Source of the DNA: Nitrobacter vulgaris
Lineage (GTDB): Bacteria; Pseudomonadota; Alphaproteobacteria; Rhizobiales; Xanthobacteraceae
Direction of reading: 5' to 3'
Assembly (NCBI RefSeq): GCF_002028545.1
Contig: NZ_MWPQ01000045.1
Location: 1 to 63,652 of the forward strand
DNA: 63,652 nt
Shown: positions 1,490 through 13,167 of the stretch, one piece after another
Numbering within the stretch: the first letter of the stretch is position 1
How the letters are laid out: each line of letters starts with the position of its first letter
The notes under the pieces: generated by a model
The model's database searches: none
What the model was told of the DNA's origin: nothing
The model's input: only the letters and a program-made list of their open reading frames with translations
Made by a program: the position numbers and the translations under genes

Positions 1490-2065
<576 letters not shown>

Positions 2066-2235
2066 GAAAGTCGTATCAGCGATTAGCGGCGATTATCGAT
2101 GATCACCGGAACCAAAACCTTTATCCTTTCAAATAGATAGTTTAATTTTCGGTGATCGCTGGGGGTCGCCAATGACGTTCAGGGAGCCATTGATCCCGCG
2201 CTTTTTTGCGCACCTTTTTTGGAGGCTCGCGTGTC
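2066..2235. promoter_or_regulatory. Left end of element: integrase promoter and probable arm sites
   Basis: Between the att repeat and the integrase start lies an AT-rich block with an inverted pair, GATCACCG at about 2100-2107 and CGGTGATC at about 2151-2158. Such sites flanking att cores often bind integrase arm domains or a repressor. Function is inferred from position only. Confidence 0.35.
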
Positions 2236-3491
2236 ATGCCCACGCGTCTATTTAAAGAATTGAGCGTTATGAAGCTGCGCCATAAGGCCGGCGAAGCCGA
2301 TACTCAGGTTACATACTACGACGCGAAGCAGAAGGGTCTGATCCTTCGCCTCAATCAGAAGGGCACAAAAAGCTGGCGCGTGCTTTACTGGCATGACGGG
2401 CGGACTCGATCTGAGGCTCTTGGCCACTTCAAGCCCGGCCTGCCCGACCACATGAGCGTCAAGCAGGCTCGCGATGCGGCAGCGAACTTCAGGGCGAACA
2501 AATCATCCATTTTGAGCGATCGCGCGAAGCAGGCTCTTGCCAACCGCGACAGCTTCGAAATCGTAGCCGAGCGATATTTGAAACGCTTCGTCGATGGCAA
2601 GCGGCGATCGGCTGGGCAAATTCGCAAGCTGATCGAAAAGCTCTATCCAGCTTGGGGCAAAAAACCATTCGAAACCATCAAACGCTCTGACATCTCAGAC
2701 CTGCTCGACGATATCGAGGAGAACCGCGGGGCAAGAACCGCGGATGTCACGCTTGCAGTCCTGCGGCGCATGATGGCGAAGCACGCCATCGCTCACGACG
2801 ACTACGCCAGTCCAATCTGCGAGGGCATGAGCCGCATCGAAAACCCGTCGGAGCGTGCTCGAGACCGCATCCTGAATGACGATGAAATTCGTGCCGTGTT
2901 CAAAGCGTGTAATGAACTGGGGGTGTTTGGCAGCCTCACAAAGATGCTGTTACTCACAGCCCAGCGGCGCGCCAAGGTCGCCACCATGAAATGGTCCGAC
3001 GTTAGCGACGATGGCATTTGGACGATCGCGACCGAAGATCGGGAGAAAGGCAATGCCGAACGACTGAAGCTCCCAAAGCGCGCTCTTGCGATCCTCGACG
3101 CCCAGAAGAAGCTTCGGCTGAACGAGTACGTATTTCCAGCAGGCCGTATCGGCAGGCGCAACGGTCCCGGAAAACACTTCGGCTCGTTTTCAGCTTTCGG
3201 TCAGGGCAAGCGCGAACTCGATAAGGCCATGGCCGCGATTCTCCCTGGCGTTCCGACGTGGGTGCTGCATGACCTTTTCGCCGCACAGCCCGGTCCCTGA
3301 TGTCGCGTGCCGATGTGCGGCCTGACATCGCGGAGCGCGTGCTCGGCCATGCGATCAGCGGCGTTCAGGGCGTATATGATCGGCACCATTATGATCGCCA
3401 GCGCGCTGCGGCTCTCGTTTCGCTATCATCGCTAATCGGCGACATTTTGGAGCCTAAGCGGGCGGGTAAGGTCGTGGCGTTTCGGCGCTAG
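2236..3491 (+). pseudogene. int: Tyrosine recombinase (integrase), 2-nt frameshift
   Basis: P4-type phage integrase fold: N-terminal arm-binding domain (about residues 10-75), core-binding helices (about 95-190), then the catalytic domain. The first catalytic Arg lies in LTAQRRAKV, as expected for box I. At WVLHDL the frame breaks: the run TTTT at 3275-3278 carries two extra bases relative to the expected HDLRRTARSL, giving a stop at 3298-3300. The remaining part continues in the next frame to 3491 and contains the box II Arg, LGH and the candidate catalytic Tyr (YDRHHY). Start 2236 follows GGAGG. Unless slippage or a sequencing error restores it, the enzyme is inactive and the element is locked in place. 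Confidence 0.85.
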
Positions 3492-3637
3492 GCCTTCTTC
3501 TTTGCGACCGCCTTCCGCTTAGTCCTCGCTGCCCTTTGGCCACCAGTGCCTTGATTCAAATGCTTCGCGAGAGCCTTGATAATCTTTTCGTCTCGCCTCT
3601 TGGCGATAAATACCAGAACTTCGCGGCCCTTAGGCAT
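3488..3637 (-). CDS. Small basic protein (49 aa), convergent to integrase
   Basis: A short frame with a strong Shine-Dalgarno (AGGAG, 5 nt before ATG 3637). The product is strongly basic: an N-terminal segment MPKGREVLVFIAKRRDEK followed by a Lys/Arg/Ala-rich tail ending AKKKA. Its stop codon and the integrase stop share the palindrome CTAG at 3488-3491, so the two genes overlap tail to tail by 3 nt. Small basic proteins next to integrases can be excisionases or nucleic-acid binders, but no HTH is visible, so function is unassigned. Confidence 0.55.
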   Translation of the reverse strand: MPKGREVLVFIAKRRDEKIIKALAKHLNQGTGGQRAARTKRKAVAKKKA

Positions 3638-3676
3638 TTCTACTCCTAATCGTTGAATCGGCATTTGTTCGAATAT

Positions 3677-3690
3677 GCGCTTCGAAGCGC
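3677..3690. promoter_or_regulatory. 14-bp perfect palindrome in divergent promoter region
   Basis: GCGCTTCGAAGCGC lies in the 245-bp gap between the minus-strand 49-aa gene (start 3637) and the plus-strand HTH gene (start 3883). A second inverted repeat (AACAGCG...CGCTGTT, about 3767-3792) lies in the same gap. The position suggests an operator controlling divergent transcription, perhaps bound by the HTH protein; this is inference. Confidence 0.35.
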
Positions 3691-3882
3691 TAATTTTCTA
3701 TGTCCCGCTGCATAAGAGCCCTTGAAGGGTTAGAGGTGTTTTGGCAATATTGATTCGGGCCACACAACAGCGCCCAAGGGCGTCGCTGTTGGGAACCTCC
3801 TGCTGAAACAGGGTGCGGACTCGAAATACTCTCGCGAATGAGAGCTTTGAGTCGCCCTTTGTATATTAGTACGGAGGATATT

Positions 3883-4338
3883 ATGCCTGTACAACGTGAA
3901 CGATTGAATCCGATCAAGCGAGAACGGCTCCATGACAATAAGGAGCCGATCAAGCGAGAGCGGCTCCATGCCGAACCGGAAAACATTTCGGACTTCGCGC
4001 CAACACGCCGGAAACTGCGTCCGACTCGAAAATCACGCGGCCCTAACAAGGAGCGGTTGATCACCGATAATCGGCGACTCCTTTTGAGGCGTGAGCTAGC
4101 CGATGTTTGCGCCGTCAGTGTCGATACGGTCAAAAAATGGGAAGCGAAGAACCCGGGCGACACCGGTATTAAACCCGTGCGCCTCACACCGAATGGCCGT
4201 TCGGTCTTCTATGACATTGAAGATGCCGAGCGCTACCTCGGGATCGCCTTGCGCCCTAAACAGGCGGTGATCGCCTCGACGGACGCGCCTGACGAGACGC
4301 CGCCACCCTCGGAGCAACCGCCGAATAAATCGTCATAG
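3883..4338 (+). CDS. HTH protein with N-terminal RERL repeats
   Basis: 151 residues; start chosen because ACGGAGG precedes ATG 3883 at ideal spacing. Residues 1-60 are a polar, probably disordered tail with the tetrapeptide RERL at 5-8, 13-16 and 25-28 and KERL at 56-59. Residues about 66-120 form a winged or MerR/AlpA-like helix-turn-helix (ELADVCAVSVDTVKKWE, then a Tyr-containing segment ending DIEDAERYLG). The C-terminus is Pro/Glu-rich. Small AlpA/MerR-type proteins commonly control integrase or replication genes in satellites. It heads the plus-strand operon that leads into the Rep-like gene. DNA binding is inferred; the RERL tail has no known counterpart that I recognise. Confidence 0.6.
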   Translation: MPVQRERLNPIKRERLHDNKEPIKRERLHAEPENISDFAPTRRKLRPTRKSRGPNKERLITDNRRLLLRRELADVCAVSVDTVKKWEAKNPGDTGIKPVRLTPNGRSVFYDIEDAERYLGIALRPKQAVIASTDAPDETPPPSEQPPNKSS

Positions 4339-4452
4339 CGGGGCCGTGACTGCGTTTTCGGGCGTTCGCCGGGCGATACAGCGGCGAACGCGGGCAACGT
4401 CCCTACGCCTCCCGTAGCGCGCTATAGAGGGCGTCGATTCTATATCATTGAA

Positions 4453-4671
4453 ATGATGGAAGAACTTCGACGTTGCATCGACGAAGCGGGGTCCGTCATA
4501 TCGAGGGCAATGACGAAACACGTTCATATCGCCTGCAATAAAGAACCCGACGCTGTTTGCGCAGCGCCGGGCCTTATCTCTTCGCCAACACCGACAACCA
4601 ACCGCCAAGTCAATTCCCGATGCGTGAACGACACTGACAGGGAGGCCAGATCGTTATGTTCGGAATCATAG
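4453..4671 (+). CDS. Possible small protein upstream of Rep (doubtful)
   Basis: A 72-residue frame with ATG 4453 overlaps the start of the next gene by 16 nt. Composition is not strongly protein-like, it has four cysteines, and no clear RBS is visible. It could be a translational coupling leader for the Rep-like gene, or chance. No family recognised. Confidence 0.2.
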   Translation: MMEELRRCIDEAGSVISRAMTKHVHIACNKEPDAVCAAPGLISSPTPTTNRQVNSRCVNDTDREARSLCSES

Positions 4672-5717
4672 GAGGCCCCGAGGGGCAGAACAAGCCCGCT
4701 CCTCTCCTCACATTCACGTCTTACATCGACACGTTGGCGGTTGTCGTCACCGGCACTGATCGATTACCGAGATCGATATTTCGCCAGATCATTCAGATCT
4801 ACGGCGACAGACCCCACGGGCGCGGGCATCGTTTCGAAATCAACGACCGAACGATCGCCTACCTAGTGCTGACCTTTCAGTGCCCTCAACCCGATTTGAT
4901 CGAGGCACTTGTCGATATGGCCCAGCAACTAGTCGAGACCGACTCAAATATTCGCGTTCGCATATCGCGCCTCGATATCGGCTACGACGTGATGCCCGAT
5001 CCGCTGCAACCGGCATCAGAGCAATTCAGGTTCATCAAAGAGCATGTCCTGATGCGTTATCGCAGGCGCCAGCCGATCAAGGTGATCGATAACGACGACG
5101 GCACCCAAGGCTATTACTTTTCGCATTATCACGGTCAGCGCGACCTAGTGCTCTACTTGCGGCGATCGAAATTACCCGAATATCGAGACCAACCCGTCGC
5201 TCGCATGGAGCTCAGAGTGAAGGGATGTGCCGCGCGCAAGGTGCTGTTGAGCGATCTGTTCGAACTAGACCCGATGAAGCACCTATTCAGACACATTCGT
5301 TTCGTTTCAGATGATTTACAAAAACGACGATTACAGATGTTGAAGCGTGTCGTGCAAACGAATACGGGTGTCATGAGGGCAAAAGCACGTCTCAATCAGC
5401 TTGATGATGATGCACAGCTTGAATTCATGCAACGTGTTTACGATCAATCGAATCCATCGCTGTTTCATCCAAAAACCGATCTCGTATCAGTGCCAAATGC
5501 GTTGATGTGGGGAGCTGTTCGAAATCAAAATGCGCGTTGCAATGAAATCAATGACATAGGGGTGAAATGTATAAAGGGGAGGTACATTAATATGAGACCC
5601 CCTTCGAAATCAGACTATCACGCGCAACGATTAGAGCCGATTGCACGTGAAAGACTGATTAAGCGTGAAAGACTAGGTACTACGACGATTGTCCGTGAAC
5701 GTCTGAGACCGAGCTAA
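4656..5717 (+). CDS. Replication-initiator-like protein with C-terminal RERL repeats
   Basis: 353 residues, start 4656 preceded by AGGGAGG. The central region resembles rolling-circle replication initiators of the Rep_trans/phage Rep type: a RLDIGYDVMPD segment (about residues 109-119), a Tyr/Arg-rich strand (LVLYLRRSKLPEYRD) and an ARMELRVKG strand (about 184-192), the order seen in those enzymes. A likely role is nicking and replicating the excised element. The last 25 residues carry RERL at 331-334, 337-340 and 347-350, echoing the tail of the upstream HTH protein. The catalytic Tyr is not certain from sequence alone. Relaxase-like activity is the alternative. Confidence 0.5.
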   Translation: MFGIIGGPEGQNKPAPLLTFTSYIDTLAVVVTGTDRLPRSIFRQIIQIYGDRPHGRGHRFEINDRTIAYLVLTFQCPQPDLIEALVDMAQQLVETDSNIRVRISRLDIGYDVMPDPLQPASEQFRFIKEHVLMRYRRRQPIKVIDNDDGTQGYYFSHYHGQRDLVLYLRRSKLPEYRDQPVARMELRVKGCAARKVLLSDLFELDPMKHLFRHIRFVSDDLQKRRLQMLKRVVQTNTGVMRAKARLNQLDDDAQLEFMQRVYDQSNPSLFHPKTDLVSVPNALMWGAVRNQNARCNEINDIGVKCIKGRYINMRPPSKSDYHAQRLEPIARERLIKRERLGTTTIVRERLRPS

Positions 5718-5822
5718 GCCGGAACGTGGATGTTCGCGATCGCGTTCATCACAAAGTCCAAGTGAAGCAACTTGGCGGTAGACCGATACTGCGCAAGTTG
5801 AGGCTACCGCTGACGCAACGGC

Positions 5823-6149
5823 CTAGCGATGTTGGTCGAGGCGAGCGCGTGCGACATCAAAACAAAACTCAATAATGCTCTTGCTTAGCTCAACGGCCTC
5901 GTCATCGCTCATCTGGCGCAAAGTAGACGGGACTTTGCCTTCTCCAGCATGTCCTTCCGCTTTGGCGGTGAGACGGTTCATGATTTCGCGAAAATTGGAC
6001 TGCATTTCGGGATCATTGTCGAAATCAGAAACCTGGATCGGATGAAAGCTTGAGTAGGCAGACCACAAGCGGTCTTGCATCCGCCCATTACCCGCGAGTG
6101 AATAGACAGCAGTCGAAAATTTTTCCCATACGTAACTAAGATCGGCCAT
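5823..6149 (-). CDS. Hypothetical protein (108 aa) behind a terminator
   Basis: Start ATG 6149 is preceded by GGAAAGAAG. The product is an acidic, soluble, mostly helical protein with no motif that I recognise. It is the only gene in the left half of the element, apart from the 49-aa gene, transcribed against the main operon. A strong intrinsic terminator lies about 14-43 nt upstream of its start on the same strand, so a transcript would have to pass it, suggesting attenuation or dependence on antitermination. Confidence 0.55.
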   Translation of the reverse strand: MADLSYVWEKFSTAVYSLAGNGRMQDRLWSAYSSFHPIQVSDFDNDPEMQSNFREIMNRLTAKAEGHAGEGKVPSTLRQMSDDEAVELSKSIIEFCFDVARARLDQHR

Positions 6150-6162
6150 TGTTCTTCTTTCC

Positions 6163-6192
6163 ACAAAATAAAAAACCGCCCCAAGGGGGCGC
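6163..6192 (-). terminator. Intrinsic terminator immediately upstream of the 108-aa gene
   Basis: On the minus strand GCGCCCCC-TT-GGGGCGG is followed by TTTTTTATTTT. The U-run exists only in the minus direction. It sits between any minus-strand promoter further right and the start codon at 6149. The surrounding 6150-6462 stretch holds no other gene that I can support. Confidence 0.7.
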
Positions 6193-6462
6193 GTCCCGAA
6201 CCTAAACGATGTATTGAGTGATGAAAACCCCGCCGATCCCGAGTCGCTGAATCCGTCCCCATACTCGTTTTCTCGCTTTGACGTACCCACATAGCGCCCC
6301 GCCCTCGAAATCCTCCCCATCCGCGGATATGGGGGAAATACGCGCCTTCAAAATCGCCCCCGAGCAGGCGAACGCCTGCCCTCGACAAAAGCGACACCAG
6401 CGGGCTTGGCAAATCAAACAATCGCAGCGATGTTGCAGAGCCTCATGACAACGGAGGCGAAC

Positions 6463-6885
6463 ATGCCAATCCCCGACAACGAAATCGATTACAACATTTG
6501 CTTCGGCAAAGGAGCCGAGCGCCAAGAGCGTGAACACAACTCAGACGCCCGCCGTCATGCGAAACACAATCGATCAAAGCCGATCAGGCGCGAACGGTTA
6601 AAGACTGAGCGATCAAAGACCCGAGAGTTAAAGACTGACGACAGCCAAGACGCCCCCGAGCGAACAATCAGGGACACGAAGTCACTCGTGATGCTTCAAG
6701 CCCTGAAGTACCCGACATTCAAAGAGGCGTACGAAAATCACGAAGACGAAATCGGGACCCATTTGACGCCCGTCACGTTCGCAAACGTCATTCGCGATAC
6801 GAAACACGCGTTGAAGCTTTTCACTCACATCGGCATCATCGATCAGGCAGCACTCAAGCGCTTTAAGAGGCGAAACAGAGTGTGA
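6463..6885 (+). CDS. Hypothetical satellite protein with RERL motif
   Basis: 140 residues; start 6463 chosen because GGAGGCGAAC precedes it (longer frames to 6406 would need TTG or weaker ATGs). The N-terminal half is polar and basic and contains PIRRERL at about residues 40-46 followed by degenerate copies (TERSK, TRELK). The C-terminal half (about 75-135) is helical with no recognised fold. It lies between the Rep-like gene and the terminase genes, a position where satellites often carry replication or packaging-redirection factors. Function unassigned; the shared motif links it to the HTH, Rep and TerL proteins. Confidence 0.5.
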   Translation: MPIPDNEIDYNICFGKGAERQEREHNSDARRHAKHNRSKPIRRERLKTERSKTRELKTDDSQDAPERTIRDTKSLVMLQALKYPTFKEAYENHEDEIGTHLTPVTFANVIRDTKHALKLFTHIGIIDQAALKRFKRRNRV

Positions 6886-7153
6886 CGATCGGTCCTTTAG
6901 CGCTGTCGAATACATGAGTTGAAACGTCGTATTCGTGTCCACACACAACTTCACTTCGATACAACGCCTTGGGACAACGCCATTCGCGTCGCGCAAATAT
7001 TTCTAGTTATATGATCTAGGATCATGCGGTGACGCGCATTAAGCCCCTCTGATTGTTCAGTTCTCACCATGAGGCTAGTTCTAAGGTGCGGTAAGAGGAT
7101 ATGTTTCATACCGTAAATGGTGGCAAACAGATCGAGGGGAGATCGACGCTAAA

Positions 7154-7570
7154 ATGCGCCCAATGAGGCCGAGGTCTGCAGTCTCAAACGGGTCGCGGCT
7201 ATTTGCGTCACGCCTCGATATGCGTACGCCTCGCGGCAAGCGCTTTAAGGACCTGATCGATTCCTACTCCCGCGATGCGGGGTGCGGTAGCCTGACTGAA
7301 GCCCAGCGCGCGCTTGTTCGAGAGCTGGCGATGCTCCAATGCATAGCCGAAGACCTACAGCTTGAGTACATGCAGACCGGCGACATGTCTGACGAGACCC
7401 GGACTCAATACAATCGCGTATCGAATACAATCCGCCGCCACCTTGCGGCCCTCGGCTTGACGCCTAAGGCACCGGCTCGGTCTAGCGACGATAACAACGA
7501 AGGGCTTGATCCATTGTCATACGCCAAACGGGGCGGCACCCGCCACAAACGGTCGAAACGATCAGAGTGA
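7154..7570 (+). CDS. Terminase small subunit-like protein
   Basis: 138 residues with GGGGAGA upstream of ATG 7154. The central part (about residues 20-95, GKRFKDLIDSYSRD...LTEAQRALVRELA) resembles the small proteins encoded just before TerL in alphaproteobacterial prophages. Both termini are basic and flexible. Its stop is 4 nt before the TerL start, so the two are translationally linked. A small terminase subunit would recognise the element's own pac site. The assignment rests mainly on position and general pattern. Confidence 0.5.
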   Translation: MRPMRPRSAVSNGSRLFASRLDMRTPRGKRFKDLIDSYSRDAGCGSLTEAQRALVRELAMLQCIAEDLQLEYMQTGDMSDETRTQYNRVSNTIRRHLAALGLTPKAPARSSDDNNEGLDPLSYAKRGGTRHKRSKRSE

Positions 7571-7574
7571 GAGC

Positions 7575-9170
7575 ATGGGGCTTAGGCGTGAAAGACTAGC
7601 CTCAAAGCCCCCCACCAAGACCACCACCACACCTCCAGCACCGATCGAGCGCGAACGGCTTGATAAGCACAAGCGCTCGGAGCCGTCACGCCTGACATTG
7701 CTCGATGCGATGGAAGACCCGAACCTGTTCGCCGGGCTCTTCCCCGACCTTGAGTCGTGGCTTGCATGGAGAGCCTTCATCGCTGCGGCGTTCGGCTTGC
7801 CCATGAGCGCCGAACAGCTTGCAATTTATCGGTCTTGCACAGGGCGCACGGAGCCGCCCTCACAACAAATGCGAACGATGGTGCTGGTCGTGGGTCGCCG
7901 TGGCGGTAAGTCGCGCATATTGGCACTGATCGCTGTGTGGCTGGCCTGTTTCGTTGATCATTCGAAATACCTCGATGCAGGCGAGCTTGGTGTTGTGCAA
8001 GTCCTCGCCGCCGATCGAGATCAGGCAAAGGTGCTGCTCCGATACGTGAAAGCGTTCCTGCATCGGGTGCCGATGTTGCACCGAATGATCAAACGCGCTT
8101 CGCAAGTCGGCATCGAACTCTCGAACTCGATAGCGATCGAAATCACCACCTCAAGCTATAGAGCCGTCCGAGGGAGGACAGTCGTCGCGGCGCTCTGCGA
8201 CGAAATCGCGTTCTGGTCTAGTGAGAACTCAGTCAACCCCGATCAGGAGGTGATCAACGCGATCAAGCCTGCAATGGCGACGATACCCTCATCAATGTTG
8301 TTGATCGCATCCAGTCCCTATTCGAGGCGCGGTGTCCTCTATCGAATGCACAAGCAATATCATGGCGTCGATGATGCCCTGACCTTGTCATGGCAGGCAC
8401 CTACGGACGTGATGAATCCGACGATCGATCGCGATTTCCTTGATCAACAGTATTCGGAGGACGCGGCGTCGGCATCAGCGGAGTACGGTGCTCAGTTCCG
8501 ATCCGATATCGAAGCCTTTATCAATCGTGAGGCAATCGAGGCGGTCACGAGCGACGAGCACGAGCGCCCGTATCTCTCCGAATTTCAATATCACGCCTTC
8601 GTCGATCCAGCGGGCGGCTCGGGTCGCGACAGCTTTACATTGGCTTTGGCGCATGTGGAGGGCGGCTTCAGCGTTCTCGATGTGATCCGTGAGGTCCGGC
8701 CCCCGTTTTCGCCCGAGGCGACAGTTCAGATGATGGCTGAACTTCTCAAGGCATATTCCATTCGCAAGATCGTCGGTGACCGGTATGCGGGCGAATGGCC
8801 CCGCGAACAGTTTAGCAAACACGGCATCACCTACGAACCAAGCGCTCGACCTAAGTCGCAGATTTACTCCGAGTTCCTGCCTTTGTTGAACAGCAAACGC
8901 TGTCTGCTCCTTGATCACCAAAAGCTCTTCAGCCAACTCGTGGCCCTTGAGCGCCGCACGGCGCGCGGCGGCAAGGATTCAATTGATCACGCCCCCAATG
9001 GTCACGACGACGTTGCGAACGCCGCTGCGGGCGTGATCACGAGCATGGGCTCTCGCAAATATCGATACGACTGCACGATGGCATGGGCGCTGCCAAGCGA
9101 GCCGTCAAAGGACGACCGAAGTTCCGCTTCCGAATATGTCTCCCGCCTGCTCAGATCAAGAGGACTATGA
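7575..9170 (+). CDS. Terminase large subunit (TerL) with RERL-bearing N-terminal tail
   Basis: 531 residues. ATPase domain: Walker A GRRGGKS at 107-113, Walker B/acidic pair LCDE at 207-210. C-terminal RNase H-like nuclease: DPAGGSGRD (Asp 344, Asp 352) and GHDD (Asp 478-479). These residues are those expected for an active packaging motor that cuts and pumps DNA. Before the ATPase domain is a tail of about 45 residues rich in Lys, Thr and Pro that carries RERL at 5-8 and 26-29; I do not recall such a tail in ordinary TerL. Start 7575 follows the TerS stop by 4 nt; its own stop is directly followed by the next start (9171). Confidence 0.85.
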   Translation: MGLRRERLASKPPTKTTTTPPAPIERERLDKHKRSEPSRLTLLDAMEDPNLFAGLFPDLESWLAWRAFIAAAFGLPMSAEQLAIYRSCTGRTEPPSQQMRTMVLVVGRRGGKSRILALIAVWLACFVDHSKYLDAGELGVVQVLAADRDQAKVLLRYVKAFLHRVPMLHRMIKRASQVGIELSNSIAIEITTSSYRAVRGRTVVAALCDEIAFWSSENSVNPDQEVINAIKPAMATIPSSMLLIASSPYSRRGVLYRMHKQYHGVDDALTLSWQAPTDVMNPTIDRDFLDQQYSEDAASASAEYGAQFRSDIEAFINREAIEAVTSDEHERPYLSEFQYHAFVDPAGGSGRDSFTLALAHVEGGFSVLDVIREVRPPFSPEATVQMMAELLKAYSIRKIVGDRYAGEWPREQFSKHGITYEPSARPKSQIYSEFLPLLNSKRCLLLDHQKLFSQLVALERRTARGGKDSIDHAPNGHDDVANAAAGVITSMGSRKYRYDCTMAWALPSEPSKDDRSSASEYVSRLLRSRGL

Positions 9171-9834
9171 CATGACTACTGACAACGCTAAATCCAGCCG
9201 CAGCATGATCGACGACTATGATCTCGAAGACTCTAACCGTGAAGTTCTTCGCGACAAACGACGCCGAAGCTTTTCGCTGTTGGTGATGGACAACGACCCG
9301 ACAGGGCTTACGCCTGTTCAAAAACAGGCTCTATGCAATGACATCAACAAGGGCGTGCCATTTGATCGCGCCCTTGATAACGCGCGCTCGGCGACCGGCG
9401 GCACAACGCAGCAGCCCGGGAGCACTCAGCCGTTTTTACAGGCCATAGCGGACTCGGATGATTGTCTCGCTTCGCGCAAGGAGCGCATCAGCAATAGGTG
9501 GCGCGACGCGGATGCTGAAGCTCCGCCGCCGACGCCGGTCAACACCATCACTCGCGAGGATGTCGATCGCGCCATGGACCGTCGAAACGAGCGGTTGACC
9601 AACGGATGGCGCGAGAGCGCTCCCGATGTCGTGAACAACGCGGCTCCTGTCGTTCACCAGACCATAGCGGACTCGGAGCTCGTCTCGCAAACGGAACGAC
9701 ACCGCAATAGGTGGAGTGACCCCGAGTCCAACTTCATGTTCAACGTCGTCAACGGTTGCTTCCTCACTCGTGAGGAAGTCAATAGCGCCATGGAGCGGCG
9801 ACACGAGCGCCTCAGAAATGCGTGGAAGAGTTAG
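9171..9834 (+). CDS. Repeat-containing hypothetical protein after TerL
   Basis: 221 residues; ATG 9171 follows the TerL stop with no gap. After an acidic N-terminus, the C-terminal two thirds consist of two diverged copies of a unit of about 70 residues. Each copy has IADS, then an ERxxNRW element, then T-R-E-(D/E)-V-x-x-AM-x-RR-x-ERL-x-N-x-W. Thus a basic-aromatic helix motif occurs four times. In phages this slot often holds a portal or head gene; this protein is too short and has no portal features. It could be a packaging modulator or structural linker; function unknown. Confidence 0.5.
9440..9831 (+). repeat. Tandem internal duplication within 9171-9834
   Basis: The DNA string CCATAGCGGACTCGGA occurs at 9443-9458 and again at about 9662-9677, each starting a unit that ends in an RRxERLxNxW-coding segment. 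Unit offset is about 220 bp. The copies have diverged at synonymous and many non-synonymous sites, so the duplication is old. Confidence 0.75.
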
Positions 9835-9923
9835 GCCCGTGCTGTTCGCACGATTGTTAACGCCGTGGAGGCGTTTGTTCACCCCCAAAAGCCGTCGAAC
9901 CGATCCGGCATGGAGAAAACATA

Positions 9924-10727
9924 ATGGCATCAAGTCCCCGACTACCTCCGAAAGCGAATGCGAAGGCACACGCGATCGACGAGGCGAAACTGGCAGCACA
10001 AGTGCTGGTCAATACGACGCTCAGCACGATACGGGAACTCAATCCCGAAGACGCCGAATGCCAGAGTGAAATCGATCGACTCTCCGAGCGGCTTGAGACG
10101 CTTCAGGCCCGGCACTGGGCGCTAACCGACCTGAGCGCCCGCGTTCAACGCTACCTTGAAAAGCTTCCTCCCGATGCGGTGATTGAAGCGGCCCCGCGCT
10201 TCAAGGTTCGCCTTAGAGACGGCGAAAGCCTAACACGTGCCGTTGACCGCATTCGGGGCGAGATCGCAAATCAACAACGCGAGCGTCAACGGGTCCTGCG
10301 CGCCGAACTGCCTATAGCTGATCGCAAACGGGCTGCGCGGGCCTACGTCAATGAATTGGCGGCAAAGGGCAGTCCGCGGATTGCGGCGGATCATGATCGG
10401 TTCGAGCTCAACTTCCCCTCAGGATTGTCGTTCGGATCGAAACCCGACGTGCAAGCGTTGCTGGCTTGGCTGAACCCGGAGCTATTTCGCGAACGACTCT
10501 GCGCCGAAATCGACGCAATGCCCAAGCCAAAGTTTGCGTTATCGACGGATGCGAAACGCGAGCGGCTACGGGAAATCAAGGCGGTCATCACTGAGCTTGA
10601 GCGCGAAGAAGAGGGCCTGATCGAAAAGGCGGCGGACGAGGGCTTCGATATCGCCCGCCGTCCCGATGCATCGCCAGCGGTCATCCTTGGGATCGTCGTC
10701 AATAAGAAGGCACGCGTCGCCGCCTAA
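9924..10727 (+). CDS. Hypothetical coiled-coil protein
   Basis: 267 residues; GGAG stands 9 nt before ATG 9924. The sequence is Glu/Arg/Leu/Ala-rich with long helical stretches at about residues 35-75 and 205-245, predicted coiled coil. It contains two more RERL strings (LFRERLC and AKRERLR) inside helices, which may be chance given the composition. Last gene of the main plus-strand run before a hairpin terminator. No recognised family; a scaffolding-like or nucleoid-like role is possible but unsupported. Confidence 0.45.
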   Translation: MASSPRLPPKANAKAHAIDEAKLAAQVLVNTTLSTIRELNPEDAECQSEIDRLSERLETLQARHWALTDLSARVQRYLEKLPPDAVIEAAPRFKVRLRDGESLTRAVDRIRGEIANQQRERQRVLRAELPIADRKRAARAYVNELAAKGSPRIAADHDRFELNFPSGLSFGSKPDVQALLAWLNPELFRERLCAEIDAMPKPKFALSTDAKRERLREIKAVITELEREEEGLIEKAADEGFDIARRPDASPAVILGIVVNKKARVAA

Positions 10728-10796
10728 TTGTGTTCCTCGCAGGTCTTAGCTTCCCTAGCGAGGCGTGGACCAGTGGTCAGGTGTCCACGGCATATT

Positions 10797-10828
10797 AAAA
10801 AAACAGACCACAGCCATTGGTCAGTTTT
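10797..10828. terminator. Bidirectional hairpin terminator ending the main operon
   Basis: Arms CAGACCA and TGGTCAG-type (10804-10824) are flanked by seven A on the left and TTTT on the right, so it can end transcription both ways. A second stem, GTGGAC/GTCCAC at 10765-10788, precedes it. The rest of 10728-11037 holds a T-arm-like sequence discussed under findings, but no gene. Confidence 0.6.
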
Positions 10829-11037
10829 ATCCTTACTGAGGCGGTGGCAACCCTAGCTGGGGGTTTGAACCCAGAGCCCGCGGTCGTTAGCCAAAGCGGC
10901 GCGGCGGGCCCTCCCAAAATAGATTTGACCCGTATCGGTGATTAGCAATGATCGCCGGGAGCAGCCCGTATCACGGGCTCGTCGAAAACTTTAGCCTGGC
11001 TCGCATTGGACGATAGTCGTCCGACGGAGAACCACGC

Positions 11038-11433
11038 ATGGCTAATAAGATCAATTACGACATGGGTAGAATTTCACCGATGGACTGGCGTGAAGCCTCC
11101 GTAGACGAGCACTTCGCGTTCGAATTGGCGCGCCTAATCAGAAAGGCTGTGGACCAAGTCTCGAAAGCTGCAATGGCTGAAGAGGTCAAGCGCGGTTATG
11201 AATGTGACTGCGGCGATCCCAACTGCCCGACGCTCAAATGCTCCCAACATGTGATCGATAAAGCGCTATTGATTTTACACTACAATCATCGAGAGATTTT
11301 CTTCGCATTGCGAAATTCCGAAATTGATGAGGCAATTAGGTGCGCCGACGAGTCTTTTGGCCAGTTAAGACAGGTATTTAATCTCGTCGGCGAGATTGAA
11401 ATCTCGCATGGAGTGACGCTGCTGGCCAGATAG
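11038..11433 (+). CDS. Hypothetical protein with Cys cluster
   Basis: 131 residues; GGAG precedes ATG 11038. A segment ECDCGDPNCPTLKC at about residues 58-71 contains four cysteines that could bind zinc, followed by His. The rest is helical and acidic. It is separated from the main operon by a terminator, so it probably has its own promoter. It faces the 431-aa gene tail to tail. No family recognised; a small cargo regulator is one possibility. Confidence 0.45.
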   Translation: MANKINYDMGRISPMDWREASVDEHFAFELARLIRKAVDQVSKAAMAEEVKRGYECDCGDPNCPTLKCSQHVIDKALLILHYNHREIFFALRNSEIDEAIRCADESFGQLRQVFNLVGEIEISHGVTLLAR

Positions 11434-11611
11434 TTTGGCTTTGACCTCTCACCTGAACCCAGCGTCGGTCGGTCGCGCGACCTGTTGCTGGGTTCCGAGA
11501 TCGCTTCAACGGCGTCGAAACGCCTGACACCGGGAAGCAGCTAGGTCGATGATGAGTGCCGAAACCGGTTTAGGCCGACATAGGGAATCCTTCGGCCGCA
11601 AGATTTAAAGT

Positions 11612-12907
11612 TTAGTCTTGCCAGTCGTTTGGAATCTCGCGCGCCCAAGCGTCATATATCGGGGCGAACATAAAGTGTTGCCCCCTTATTATTGTTTGAG
11701 TGGCTCCAAGCGTTACTTGATCGCCGTTGCGATGGAAGTCCGCAAAGAGCTCAACGGGATCACCCTCGCGCCGAACAAGAATGGCACGAAGCACCTCTTT
11801 CCGATCCGGCGCGTCGGCTGCACGCATGTACGGTTTGCTTGGGTCCGCAACAGCTCTCCAAGCCTCTCCTATCAGTATGACGCCATCTGCGGCCAACCGC
11901 GTTACTTCATGCGCGATGTCCCGCATTATGAGGTACTTGGCTCCGTGATCCGAAAACTCCGGATGAATAACCTGAACCATTTTGACGCCCCTCAGCAGAA
12001 ACACGAGCGTGAGGTGATAGCCATCTTTTTCAACCATCTTCCTAGCGGTATCAAAGAGCGAATCTAGAAGGGTCTCTTGATCGCCGGAGGTGTCGAATAC
12101 TGCCTCCGGCTGCAAGCCGTATCTTGCTACGCTCTCCTCGGCTTTTTGACGATCAAAATGGATTGCCTCTCGCGAGAGATCAAACTCCTTCCCATCAGAA
12201 AGAGAAATGTTGATGCTTCGCGCATCTCCGTGGCCTATCATGCACGGAAGCCTTCCAGCTCTTCCCGCTCCAAATTCTTCGCCAGTTTCAACGTCGATCG
12301 TTATGGGAGGATGTCGCCCTATGTTTCTATGCGCATCGTGAACGACCTCAGCAATTTTGCCATAGGCCATAGCGACTGCATCAAGCAGCTCGTAATCAGG
12401 CAACGAATTCTCTACCCAACGGCGTTGAATTTTAACCGTTCCGAATTCCTTAATATGCTGCCCCAAGGCTGACTCCGGTATGCTCTTTATGAGCACCTGC
12501 GGACCGTCAAAAAGCTTTGCTGGCACCTCGATGACAGGGCCATTGTTGAGGTAGGATGCAATAATTTCAGCACGAACGAAGCTGTTCGCTTCTAAGTCTC
12601 CCTGTTTTTCGATCTTGTTTCTTGCGTCGACCATCCAGCGCATTAGCCCATCGGACTTTAGCTTTTCTTGCCAGGGCGCATACCAACGATCGAATTCGGG
12701 GATGAGGTGCTTATTACTCTGCAATACAAAAGTGACGGTGCGCAGTGTTTGAATAGCGGTCTGGATCGCGATGCGAAATCCGTCCGGTTCGAAATAGGCT
12801 CGCTCCGCCGAATGCCAATGCCGATGAACATCCTCGAGGCGACGGTCAATTGCTGCTAAAGGGCAGGCTCGGTCATGCAATTCGGTTCGCTCGGTCTTTC
12901 TTGACAT
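11612..12907 (-). CDS. Unknown 431-aa protein, probable cargo gene
   Basis: Starts at ATG 12907 about 185 bp from the att repeat and is transcribed inward. No signal peptide or transmembrane helix. I recognise no domain; the N-terminal half is helical, the C-terminal half looks alpha/beta. Its position at the end of the element next to the attachment site, and opposite orientation, is where satellites and genomic islands carry accessory genes such as phage defence or host-fitness factors. That role is inference from location only. The coding frame is intact, so it is likely still expressed. Confidence 0.6.
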   Translation of the reverse strand: MSRKTERTELHDRACPLAAIDRRLEDVHRHWHSAERAYFEPDGFRIAIQTAIQTLRTVTFVLQSNKHLIPEFDRWYAPWQEKLKSDGLMRWMVDARNKIEKQGDLEANSFVRAEIIASYLNNGPVIEVPAKLFDGPQVLIKSIPESALGQHIKEFGTVKIQRRWVENSLPDYELLDAVAMAYGKIAEVVHDAHRNIGRHPPITIDVETGEEFGAGRAGRLPCMIGHGDARSINISLSDGKEFDLSREAIHFDRQKAEESVARYGLQPEAVFDTSGDQETLLDSLFDTARKMVEKDGYHLTLVFLLRGVKMVQVIHPEFSDHGAKYLIMRDIAHEVTRLAADGVILIGEAWRAVADPSKPYMRAADAPDRKEVLRAILVRREGDPVELFADFHRNGDQVTLGATQTIIRGQHFMFAPIYDAWAREIPNDWQD

Positions 12908-12987
12908 GCCACCATCTAACCTCGCGAACCCTGATACACGCTAACTACCCAAATTCGCTACCTCCCGCGGCCGCCGAGCGCGTGAGT

Positions 12988-13058
12988 TTATCGGGGACAA
13001 AAGGTGATTATCGGGGTTTTTGGACCGCGCCTTTACCGCACCTTTGGGTATCGGGCGT
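12988..13058. repeat. Direct repeats near right att: probable integrase arm sites
   Basis: TTATCGGGG occurs at 12988-12996 and 13008-13016, and a related TATCGGGCG at about 13050-13058, all within 105 bp of the att core at 13092. Repeats at this distance are typical of integrase arm-type sites. No gene lies in 12908-13091. Confidence 0.45.
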
Positions 13059-13091
13059 TTTGGCGAAAATCAACTAAACCATTGATTTTAT

Positions 13092-13167
<76 letters not shown>

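Follow-up and report, generated by a model that had tools for sequence, protein, structure and literature searches.

An R-x-R-[LIV] peptide tag recurs in the tails of replication and packaging proteins of a satellite-like element family in Nitrobacter vulgaris and its relatives

The window analysed here is a 63,652-nucleotide stretch of the Nitrobacter vulgaris genome (contig NZ_MWPQ01000045.1, our C16). It carries a tRNA-integrated, satellite-like element of 11.1 kb (about 2019-13138), which we call c1; a second copy of the element, on another contig of the same 3.9-Mb genome, is called c2. In c1 the tetrapeptide RERL occurs repeatedly in the tails of a helix-turn-helix (HTH) protein, a putative replication initiator (Rep), the protein encoded at 6463-6885 (the 6463 protein) and the large terminase (TerL). 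The tag recurs in related elements, as the broader R-x-R-[LIV], on the same proteins and on the small terminase (TerS), far above the level expected from composition, and the constraint on it acts on the protein. In our estimate (probability roughly 0.6) the tails dock on one common partner through the tag, which would be a short linear docking motif in a family of capsid-less satellites.

The tag in the N. vulgaris genome

An earlier note, made from the sequence alone, had placed RERL or KERL in the HTH protein, Rep, the 6463 protein and TerL and two related forms in the protein encoded at 9924-10727 (p9924); every position is correct on recount, the forms in p9924 being RERL. The tails of the first four proteins hold nine copies of RERL, or 11 when p9924 is included. 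Shuffling each protein within its own composition gives a mean of 0.14 and a maximum of 3, and none of 20,000 shuffles reaches 11. For c2, seven copies (five in tails, two in p9924) compare with a mean of 0.09, again with none of 20,000 shuffles as high. The shuffle set comprises the proteins other than the integrase; the 9172-9834 protein holds no RERL in its true frame. The density check against shuffled-composition controls, set beforehand by the earlier note, thus returns an excess over the controls. A degenerate codon pattern for P-I-x-R-E-R-L has eight matches in the genome, five in c1, three in c2 and none elsewhere. The same pattern is matched in 199 of 296 family genomes, about once per genome; the eight here are the highest count, with seven in three others. 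The observation is confirmed as real and extends beyond the window.

c2 lies complete between repeats in tRNA-His on contig C77. Its TerL is 95% and its Rep 75% identical to those of c1, and it keeps two tags in TerL, two in Rep and one in the 6463 protein.

Recurrence in related elements

Among 397 genomes of the order, 11 (this genome being one of them) have a TerL homologue. The alignment starts near residue 40 in four aligned homologues and in most others, so residues 1-39 are an extension; TerLs outside the tagged group lack the tag-bearing tail. A profile scan kept 80 of 154 loci from named genomes and gave 78 from viral contigs, 158 together (numbered with the prefix L); a single-protein TerL scan of the viral contigs found no relative. 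The closest loci are from Bradyrhizobium (L069, L071-L075), Beijerinckiaceae (L070), Afipia (L076), Nitrobacter (L078) and Pseudolabrys (L080). All 10 have the TerL extension and nine have R-x-R-[LIV] in it; many carry the motif also in the TerS, 6463-protein and Rep tails. Placement is the same throughout: the N-terminus of TerL, the C-terminus of TerS, the N-terminus of the 6463 protein and the C-terminal part of Rep.

Across the 158 loci (plus-strand open reading frames (ORFs) of at least 50 amino acids), RERL is absent from 116, single in 34 and double in five; the highest counts, three in L071, four in L074 and five in L073, all belong to tagged elements. The region before the TerL core is readable in 132 of the 158 and contains R.R[LIVA] in 19, namely nine tagged loci (L069-L076 and L078), L084, L086 and L089 from genomes, and seven viral contigs. 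Six of these seven are near-identical, with RRRL within a different upstream sequence, and RERL precedes the TerL core in none of the seven. The TerL of L080 has RVRI, which lies outside the region covered by the 132-locus count. A search with the 6463-protein family matched six of 391 family genomes and eight of 265 Bradyrhizobium genomes, mostly at known loci (four recognised by sequence, two by coordinates); L237, L243 and L244 are new. L243 and L244 were added after the motif had been defined, and both are tagged in TerL, in TerS and in the 6463 protein and neither in Rep; the 6463 protein is not independent in this count, its profile having found both elements.

Rep was found only in this genome among 121 genomes of relatives, and in none of the plasmids and phages searched. 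Reps without detectable BLASTP relation are nevertheless both tagged: those of c1, c2, L071, L074 and L237 on one side and of L073 and L076 on the other. The Rep of L080 matches neither group and has its tag further in. The replication-type proteins of L073 (3815-4948), L076 (3950-5152) and L080 (4221-5414) have no BLASTP relation to the window Rep, and the TerL and TerS of these elements are homologous to those of the window. As judged from sequence, the replication module appears to have been exchanged in these three elements, and each of the three proteins has R-x-R-[LIV] in its C-terminal part. The motif, whose presence in homologous elements the earlier note had made a point to check, is therefore found there, and three points were not foreseen: the tag is broader than RERL, it extends to TerS in relatives, and TerLs outside the group are without the tail that bears it.

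Enrichment and controls

Thirteen elements with 49 tails were compared, L243 and L244 standing outside this set. The tails contain 50 R.R[LIV] against 6.7 in shuffles (0 of 3,000 as high) and 24 exact RERL against 0.29. Without c1 and c2 the values are 13 against 0.23 for RERL and 39 against 5.55 for R.R[LIV] (0 of 10,000 each). At least one strict tag is present in 12 of 13 TerLs (all except L075), in seven of 13 TerSs (c1, c2, L071, L073, L078 and L080 have none; L071 has RAKL), in seven of 11 6463 proteins (L070, L072, L075 and L237 have none; L237 has REKL) and in eight of 12 Reps (L069, L072, L075 and L080 have none in the last 60 residues).

The cores of the TerL, TerS, 6463-protein and Rep families are near or below chance. 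The termini of 60 proteins encoded downstream of TerL in 10 tagged loci, a set that includes homologues of p9924 and of the 9172-9834 protein and possibly some flanking genes, hold 10 R.R[LIV] against 9.0 expected. Another 63 proteins, picked by hand out of the 113 ORFs listed for untagged loci (18 of 20 loci), likewise have termini at chance. In 11 untagged loci, peptides of four or five residues common to at least three ORFs gave only composition-like sequences among the best 15 per locus, with no tag of their own. The tag thus has two marks of a short linear motif, enrichment over residue composition and recurrence in non-homologous proteins (TerL, TerS, the 6463 protein, the Reps and the c1 HTH protein).

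The two RERLs of p9924 lie outside the tails and the L027 homologue is without them; they are probably something other than the tag. The p9924 family holds four RERL against 0.2 expected, all four from c1 and c2. Similarly, NERL and HERL are present in the 9172-9834 protein but belong to a separate C-terminal repeat, about R-x-x-R-[LIV]-x-x-A-W-[KR], and are probably unrelated to the tag. This repeat is shared across the family and was also spotted by eye in L027, an untagged relative; in the c2 counterpart (L005, reverse complement 10452-11228) it is fused to a DUF2213 domain (8.7e-56).

Conservation at the protein level

Between c1 and c2 the 19 motif codons, five of which encode the variable x, differ by four synonymous and no non-synonymous changes. 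The other 97 aligned tail codons differ by nine synonymous and 24 non-synonymous changes and 885 core codons by 163 and 112. Comparison of motif with other tail codons gives Fisher p values of 0.012 and 0.011, on small numbers. In the TerL and Rep tails of three further pairs (L071-L237, L071-L074 and L074-L237), 34 motif codons show nine synonymous and four non-synonymous changes; in the same pairs the 10 x codons have four non-synonymous changes and the remaining 99 tail codons have 38. The motif thus is favoured here too, though not untouched. The comparison of synonymous with non-synonymous change, another check named beforehand, finds the motif conserved more than its surroundings at the protein level.

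Codon variety had been put forward as an argument for protein-level conservation, and it holds, the codons being as diverse as codon usage predicts. Over 12 bases, c1 tags of different genes are 0.721 identical in DNA against 0.705 expected from codon usage (1,398 of 5,000 draws as high). Five other elements show no clear departure, the largest being L073 (0.792 against 0.719; 443 of 5,000). Since the codons vary as codon usage predicts, the constraint is on the protein. The blocks of shared DNA noticed earlier between tag pairs are real and 14-33 bp long, but they do not amount to conservation of DNA, tag identity being at the level of codon usage. Part of the HTH tail (3910-3978) is likely a local duplication among these blocks. 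Of the three origins offered in the earlier note, the codon tests remove the footprint of iteron-like DNA repeats; a docking motif or a subcellular address remains, with support.

Structure and context of the tagged tails

Models were made of the 6463 protein and Rep from alignments of eight and nine rows. Residues 1-64 of the 6463 protein mostly have a predicted local distance difference test (pLDDT) score below 50. The Rep model has a mean pLDDT of 71.5, with low confidence in its C-terminal part. Such low scores are what a disordered tail would produce, in the 6463 protein and to a lesser extent in Rep. Its best match in the PDB is the rolling-circle initiator 4cij (E 4.7e-7, template modelling score 0.32-0.40, 14% identity), and on its predicted fold Rep is rolling-circle-initiator-like; no Pfam initiator family matches it. 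The tail peptides match no sequence in the PDB. The motif is often preceded by R, K or H, and over 54 motifs positions +4, +5 and +6 are each most frequently D. Runs of D/E close several TerS tails, and many tags lie near protein ends.

The last residue of the tag (L versus I/V) agrees across the proteins of one element in 65 of 82 pairs, against 47.4 expected; a single shuffle in 5,000 gave as many. Single cases are mixed: L073 and L076, whose Reps are related (33% identity), have RERL plus RKRV and the overlapping pair RDRV/RVRL in these Reps, next to RERL and RQRI/RERV in TerL, respectively. A tree of TerL unites the nine elements whose TerL tags are of the L type (support 92/99, just below the tool's mark) and leaves I/V-type elements among untagged relatives without resolution. 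A concerted change from L to I/V is suggested only.

The element and its genes

The element is bounded by exact direct repeats of 47 bp, the right copy being the 3' part of tRNA-Lys(CTT); its features are given in Table 1. Such repeats stand 11.1-12.7 kb apart in eight of nine elements examined and, together with an integrase, mark these as small integrated elements. In L234 (same locus as L069), L235 (L072), L236 (L071), L237, L243 and L244 they are 45-57 bp long and 12.2-12.7 kb apart; L238 (L076) yielded none. In L234-L237 ARAGORN places a tRNA-His or tRNA-Lys that the right repeat overlaps, and this tRNA-His sequence is also present within the repeats of L243 and L244.

Table 1. Features of the c1 element in window coordinates
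Feature	Position	Strand	Basis
Left attachment repeat, 47 bp, identical to 13092-13138	2019..2065	.	exact direct repeat
Tyrosine integrase, frame interrupted near 3270-3300 (ORFs 2206-3300, 3300-3491)	2206..3491	+	PHROG integrase 3.2e-33; break visible in sequence
HTH protein, N-terminal RERL 5, 13, 25 (3895-3906, 3919-3930, 3955-3966)	3883..4338	+	sequence
HTH protein, KERL at residue 56	4048-4059	+	sequence
Rep, rolling-circle-initiator-like; C-terminal RERL 331, 337, 347 (5646-5657, 5664-5675, 5694-5705)	4656..5717	+	sequence and predicted fold
6463 protein; RERL 43 (6589-6600) in low-confidence N-terminal part; helical C-terminal domain	6463..6885	+	sequence and model
TerS (small terminase); end TRHKRSKRSE, without strict tag in c1	7154..7570	+	
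TerL (large terminase), ATG at 7575; RERL 5 and 26 (7587-7598, 7650-7661) in N-terminal extension 1-39	7575..9170	+	
Protein with R..R[LIV]..AW[KR] repeats (source of NERL/HERL)	9172..9834	+	no Pfam family matched in c1
p9924, conserved family protein, helical look; RERL 189 and 212, outside tails	9924..10727	+	
Variable cargo region	11038..12907	.	no Pfam or PADLOC match
Cargo ORF	11038-11433	+	
Cargo ORF	11612-12907	-	
Right attachment repeat, inside tRNA-Lys	13092..13138	.	exact direct repeat

The HTH protein has a weak PHROG match to an excisionase/regulator (6.3e-4). With its integrase frame broken, c1 may be unable to excise itself; c2 has a different integrase ORF of 432 amino acids. 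No family named capsid, portal or tail is among the PHROG matches of 66 proteins encoded downstream of TerL in tagged loci, of which 60 come from the 10 loci and six from c1, c2 and L237 (24 and 16 PHROG families); the scan covered genes downstream of TerL and, in the 10 loci, ORFs of at least 110 amino acids. The matches, listed in full, comprise cargo (DNA methyltransferases and thymidylate synthase, for example), integrases, a protease, a metallo-protease and families without known function. The 63 proteins from untagged loci match tape-measure, tail-fibre and baseplate families, each in at most three of the 63 (among 25 of 99 families listed), tape-measure families being among the commonest matches. 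Some, not necessarily most, untagged relatives therefore adjoin tail genes. Large ORFs (above 560 amino acids) stand behind TerL in untagged L079, L081, L085, L087, L094, L095, L099 and L106, from Methylobacterium, Shinella, Mesorhizobium, Rhizobium and other hosts; these could represent a distinct type of element, or prophages. The tagged family is capsid-less, terminase-bearing and satellite-like, and would depend on a helper.

A variable ORF (59-249 amino acids) lies between TerS and TerL in L070 (6593-6985), L071 (6233-6982), L237 (reverse, 8371-8550) and L243 (reverse, 9968-10204); its versions are similar near their C-termini by eye. By eye, the cargo of L244 (6692-8607) resembles a SIR2-type protein with a TIR-type protein behind it, an arrangement known from anti-phage systems. 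Comparison of five cargo and other proteins with defence families gave a single match (E 0.011).

Interpretation

The motif is roughly [I/R]-[K/R/H]-R-x-R-[L/I/V]-[D/E], most often R-E-R-L, and belongs to a family of satellite-like elements that measure 11-13 kb, are integrated at tRNA genes and occur in bacteria related to Bradyrhizobium. Its profile is that of a docking motif because it sits in tails of unrelated cores, in one to three copies, with a conserved peptide and at chance level in other downstream genes. We propose that accessible tails of the replication initiator, the 6463 protein, TerS and TerL (and in c1 the HTH protein) present the tag, and that one to three copies per protein would allow multivalent binding to a single partner. 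This partner could be a product of the host, of a helper phage or of a gene of the element that has yet to be recognised. We favour a hub supplied by host or helper, as the tag has so far been seen in elements without structural genes and is borne by both replication and packaging proteins. Replication and packaging proteins would thereby be gathered at one place, for example the helper's site of replication or assembly, where satellite DNA would be copied and then handed to the satellite's own terminase together. In a tentative variant, to which we give a lesser chance, the tag is a satellite-wide address: one peptide code on most core proteins, those for copying and regulation and both terminase subunits, read by a single receptor in the infected cell, would build a private satellite factory or allow joint loading, and the code would drift in concert within each element. 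A docking motif and an address both imply a common partner.

Several observations weigh against a docking motif. TerS lacks a strict tag in six of 13 elements, this window's included, the Rep tail is untagged in L069, L072, L075, L243 and L244, and the Rep match of L070 aligns with sequence of L069 and is probably native sequence rather than a tag. No HTH gene with tags is present in c2, and HTH tags are seen only in c1. Two of the three Rep tags (residues 329-341) fall in a predicted low-confidence helix (318-344) and not in plain coil. The p9924 family, over nine elements, holds 10 R.R[LIV] against 4.6 (three of 400 shuffles as high) and 31 [RK].[RK][LIV] against 12.2, an excess for which the protein's charged, helical look is the sole explanation offered. 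For tags in different genes, the nine upstream bases have an identity of 0.55 in c1 and 0.53 in c2, more than chance; this likeness may only reflect the shared P-I-x. Of the statistics, the shuffles ignore relatedness within a protein family, so the independent weight rests on recurrence across unrelated families, including the Reps unrelated by BLASTP; R.R[LIV] was defined after the relatives had been seen, exact RERL before; and the covariation test ignores the tree, with the I/V-type elements in its poorly resolved part. Finally, many tails are arginine-rich, as tails that bind nucleic acid would be. From the sequence patterns we infer that the tails dock, that they share a partner, that replication and packaging are thereby coupled and that a helper mobilises the element.

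The main rivals are nucleic-acid binding and a shared degradation signal. Arginine-rich tails could bind DNA or RNA non-specifically, and basic tails would evolve repeatedly in replication and packaging proteins, all of which handle nucleic acid; the basic residues before the motif fit this, as does a plausible contact of the tagged proteins with DNA. Arginine content alone is insufficient, the full pattern being commoner than in shuffles of the same residues, acidic residues often follow the motif and form the D/E runs at several TerS ends, and the last residue agrees across the proteins of one element; we consider this reading unlikely. Alternatively, a host or phage protease could read R-x-R-[LIV], keeping the proteins low until a helper arrives or trimming them. 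The many tags near protein ends would suit such a signal, as would the DUF2213 domain in c2, which we take to lie near phage head genes, and the two downstream genes of tagged loci whose PHROG families are named protease and metallo-protease. Against it, tags are found on the N-terminal as well as the C-terminal side of proteins, with as many as three copies; we know of no protease for this motif and regard the reading as quite unlikely.

That the tags are in-frame copies of a mobile or cis-acting DNA repeat, such as iterons or Rickettsia palindromic elements, and protein only by accident, draws on the shared blocks and the upstream likeness in c1. DNA likeness beyond what the peptide needs, by which Rickettsia palindromic elements are told, is not found for the 12 tag bases, all motif changes between c1 and c2 are synonymous, and relatives keep the peptide with other codons. 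A DNA-repeat footprint was rejected on these codon grounds, the scans for DNA copies covering the coding pattern and the shared repeats, and is highly improbable. Chance would seem a natural source in proteins where R and L are common, since one ancestral RERL per family could be kept by descent; the shuffles, the downstream-gene and core controls and the recurrence in several unrelated families, Reps unrelated by BLASTP among them, led us to reject it, and it has next to no weight. A nuclear-localisation reading was also considered, the tag resembling signals of the KRVKLD type.

If the tag is a docking motif, it would show by what means so small a satellite arranges its proteins spatially and links its replication with packaging. 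The tail peptides would be ready bait for the receptor, and the tag would be a sequence signature for satellites that searches based on structural genes would miss.

Relation to known systems

Docking motifs as such are known in bacteria; the clamp-binding motif, the C-terminal tail of SSB and the C-terminal peptide of FtsZ each serve a hub. Like the present tag they are short, lie in tails and recur in unrelated proteins that meet at one place, but they differ in sequence, and we have so far observed R-x-R-[LIV] in a single satellite family. Phage proteins can also share a targeting signal, as do the internal proteins of T4 with their capsid-targeting sequences and the proteins imported into the nucleus of jumbo phages. 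There too several unrelated phage proteins are directed to one place. Those phages are large, whereas the present element measures 11-13 kb, and its tag, in N- or C-terminal tails, marks proteins for replication and packaging. To our knowledge, no mobile element has been described with one tag on replication, regulatory and packaging proteins. Compared with initiators of the Rep_trans or RepDE type, the window Rep, whose predicted fold matches 4cij best, has the tagged C-terminal tail as an extra and no Pfam initiator match.

Phage satellites such as PICI and PICMI are described as 7-20 kb in size, with attachment repeats, integrase, regulatory and replication genes and without structural genes (PMC13376191). 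PICIs can carry TerS, and cfPICIs encode both terminase subunits (PMC10690885). cfPICIs also encode capsid, portal and maturation protease; no capsid, portal or tail family was found downstream of TerL in the tagged loci scanned, which sets the present elements outside the cfPICIs. No such tag is described in the portions consulted of the PICI, cfPICI and PICMI literature, including PMC10690885, PMC10803314, PMC11389934 and PMC11080155, nor in the titles and abstract beginnings, mostly of papers outside subscription, of a wider literature search. Like PICI and PICMI, the elements described here are small, integrated, bounded by attachment repeats and equipped with an integrase, with no structural genes found downstream of TerL. 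They differ from these in also encoding TerL, the 9172-9834 protein, p9924 and the shared tag, and their link to a helper would be a further likeness.

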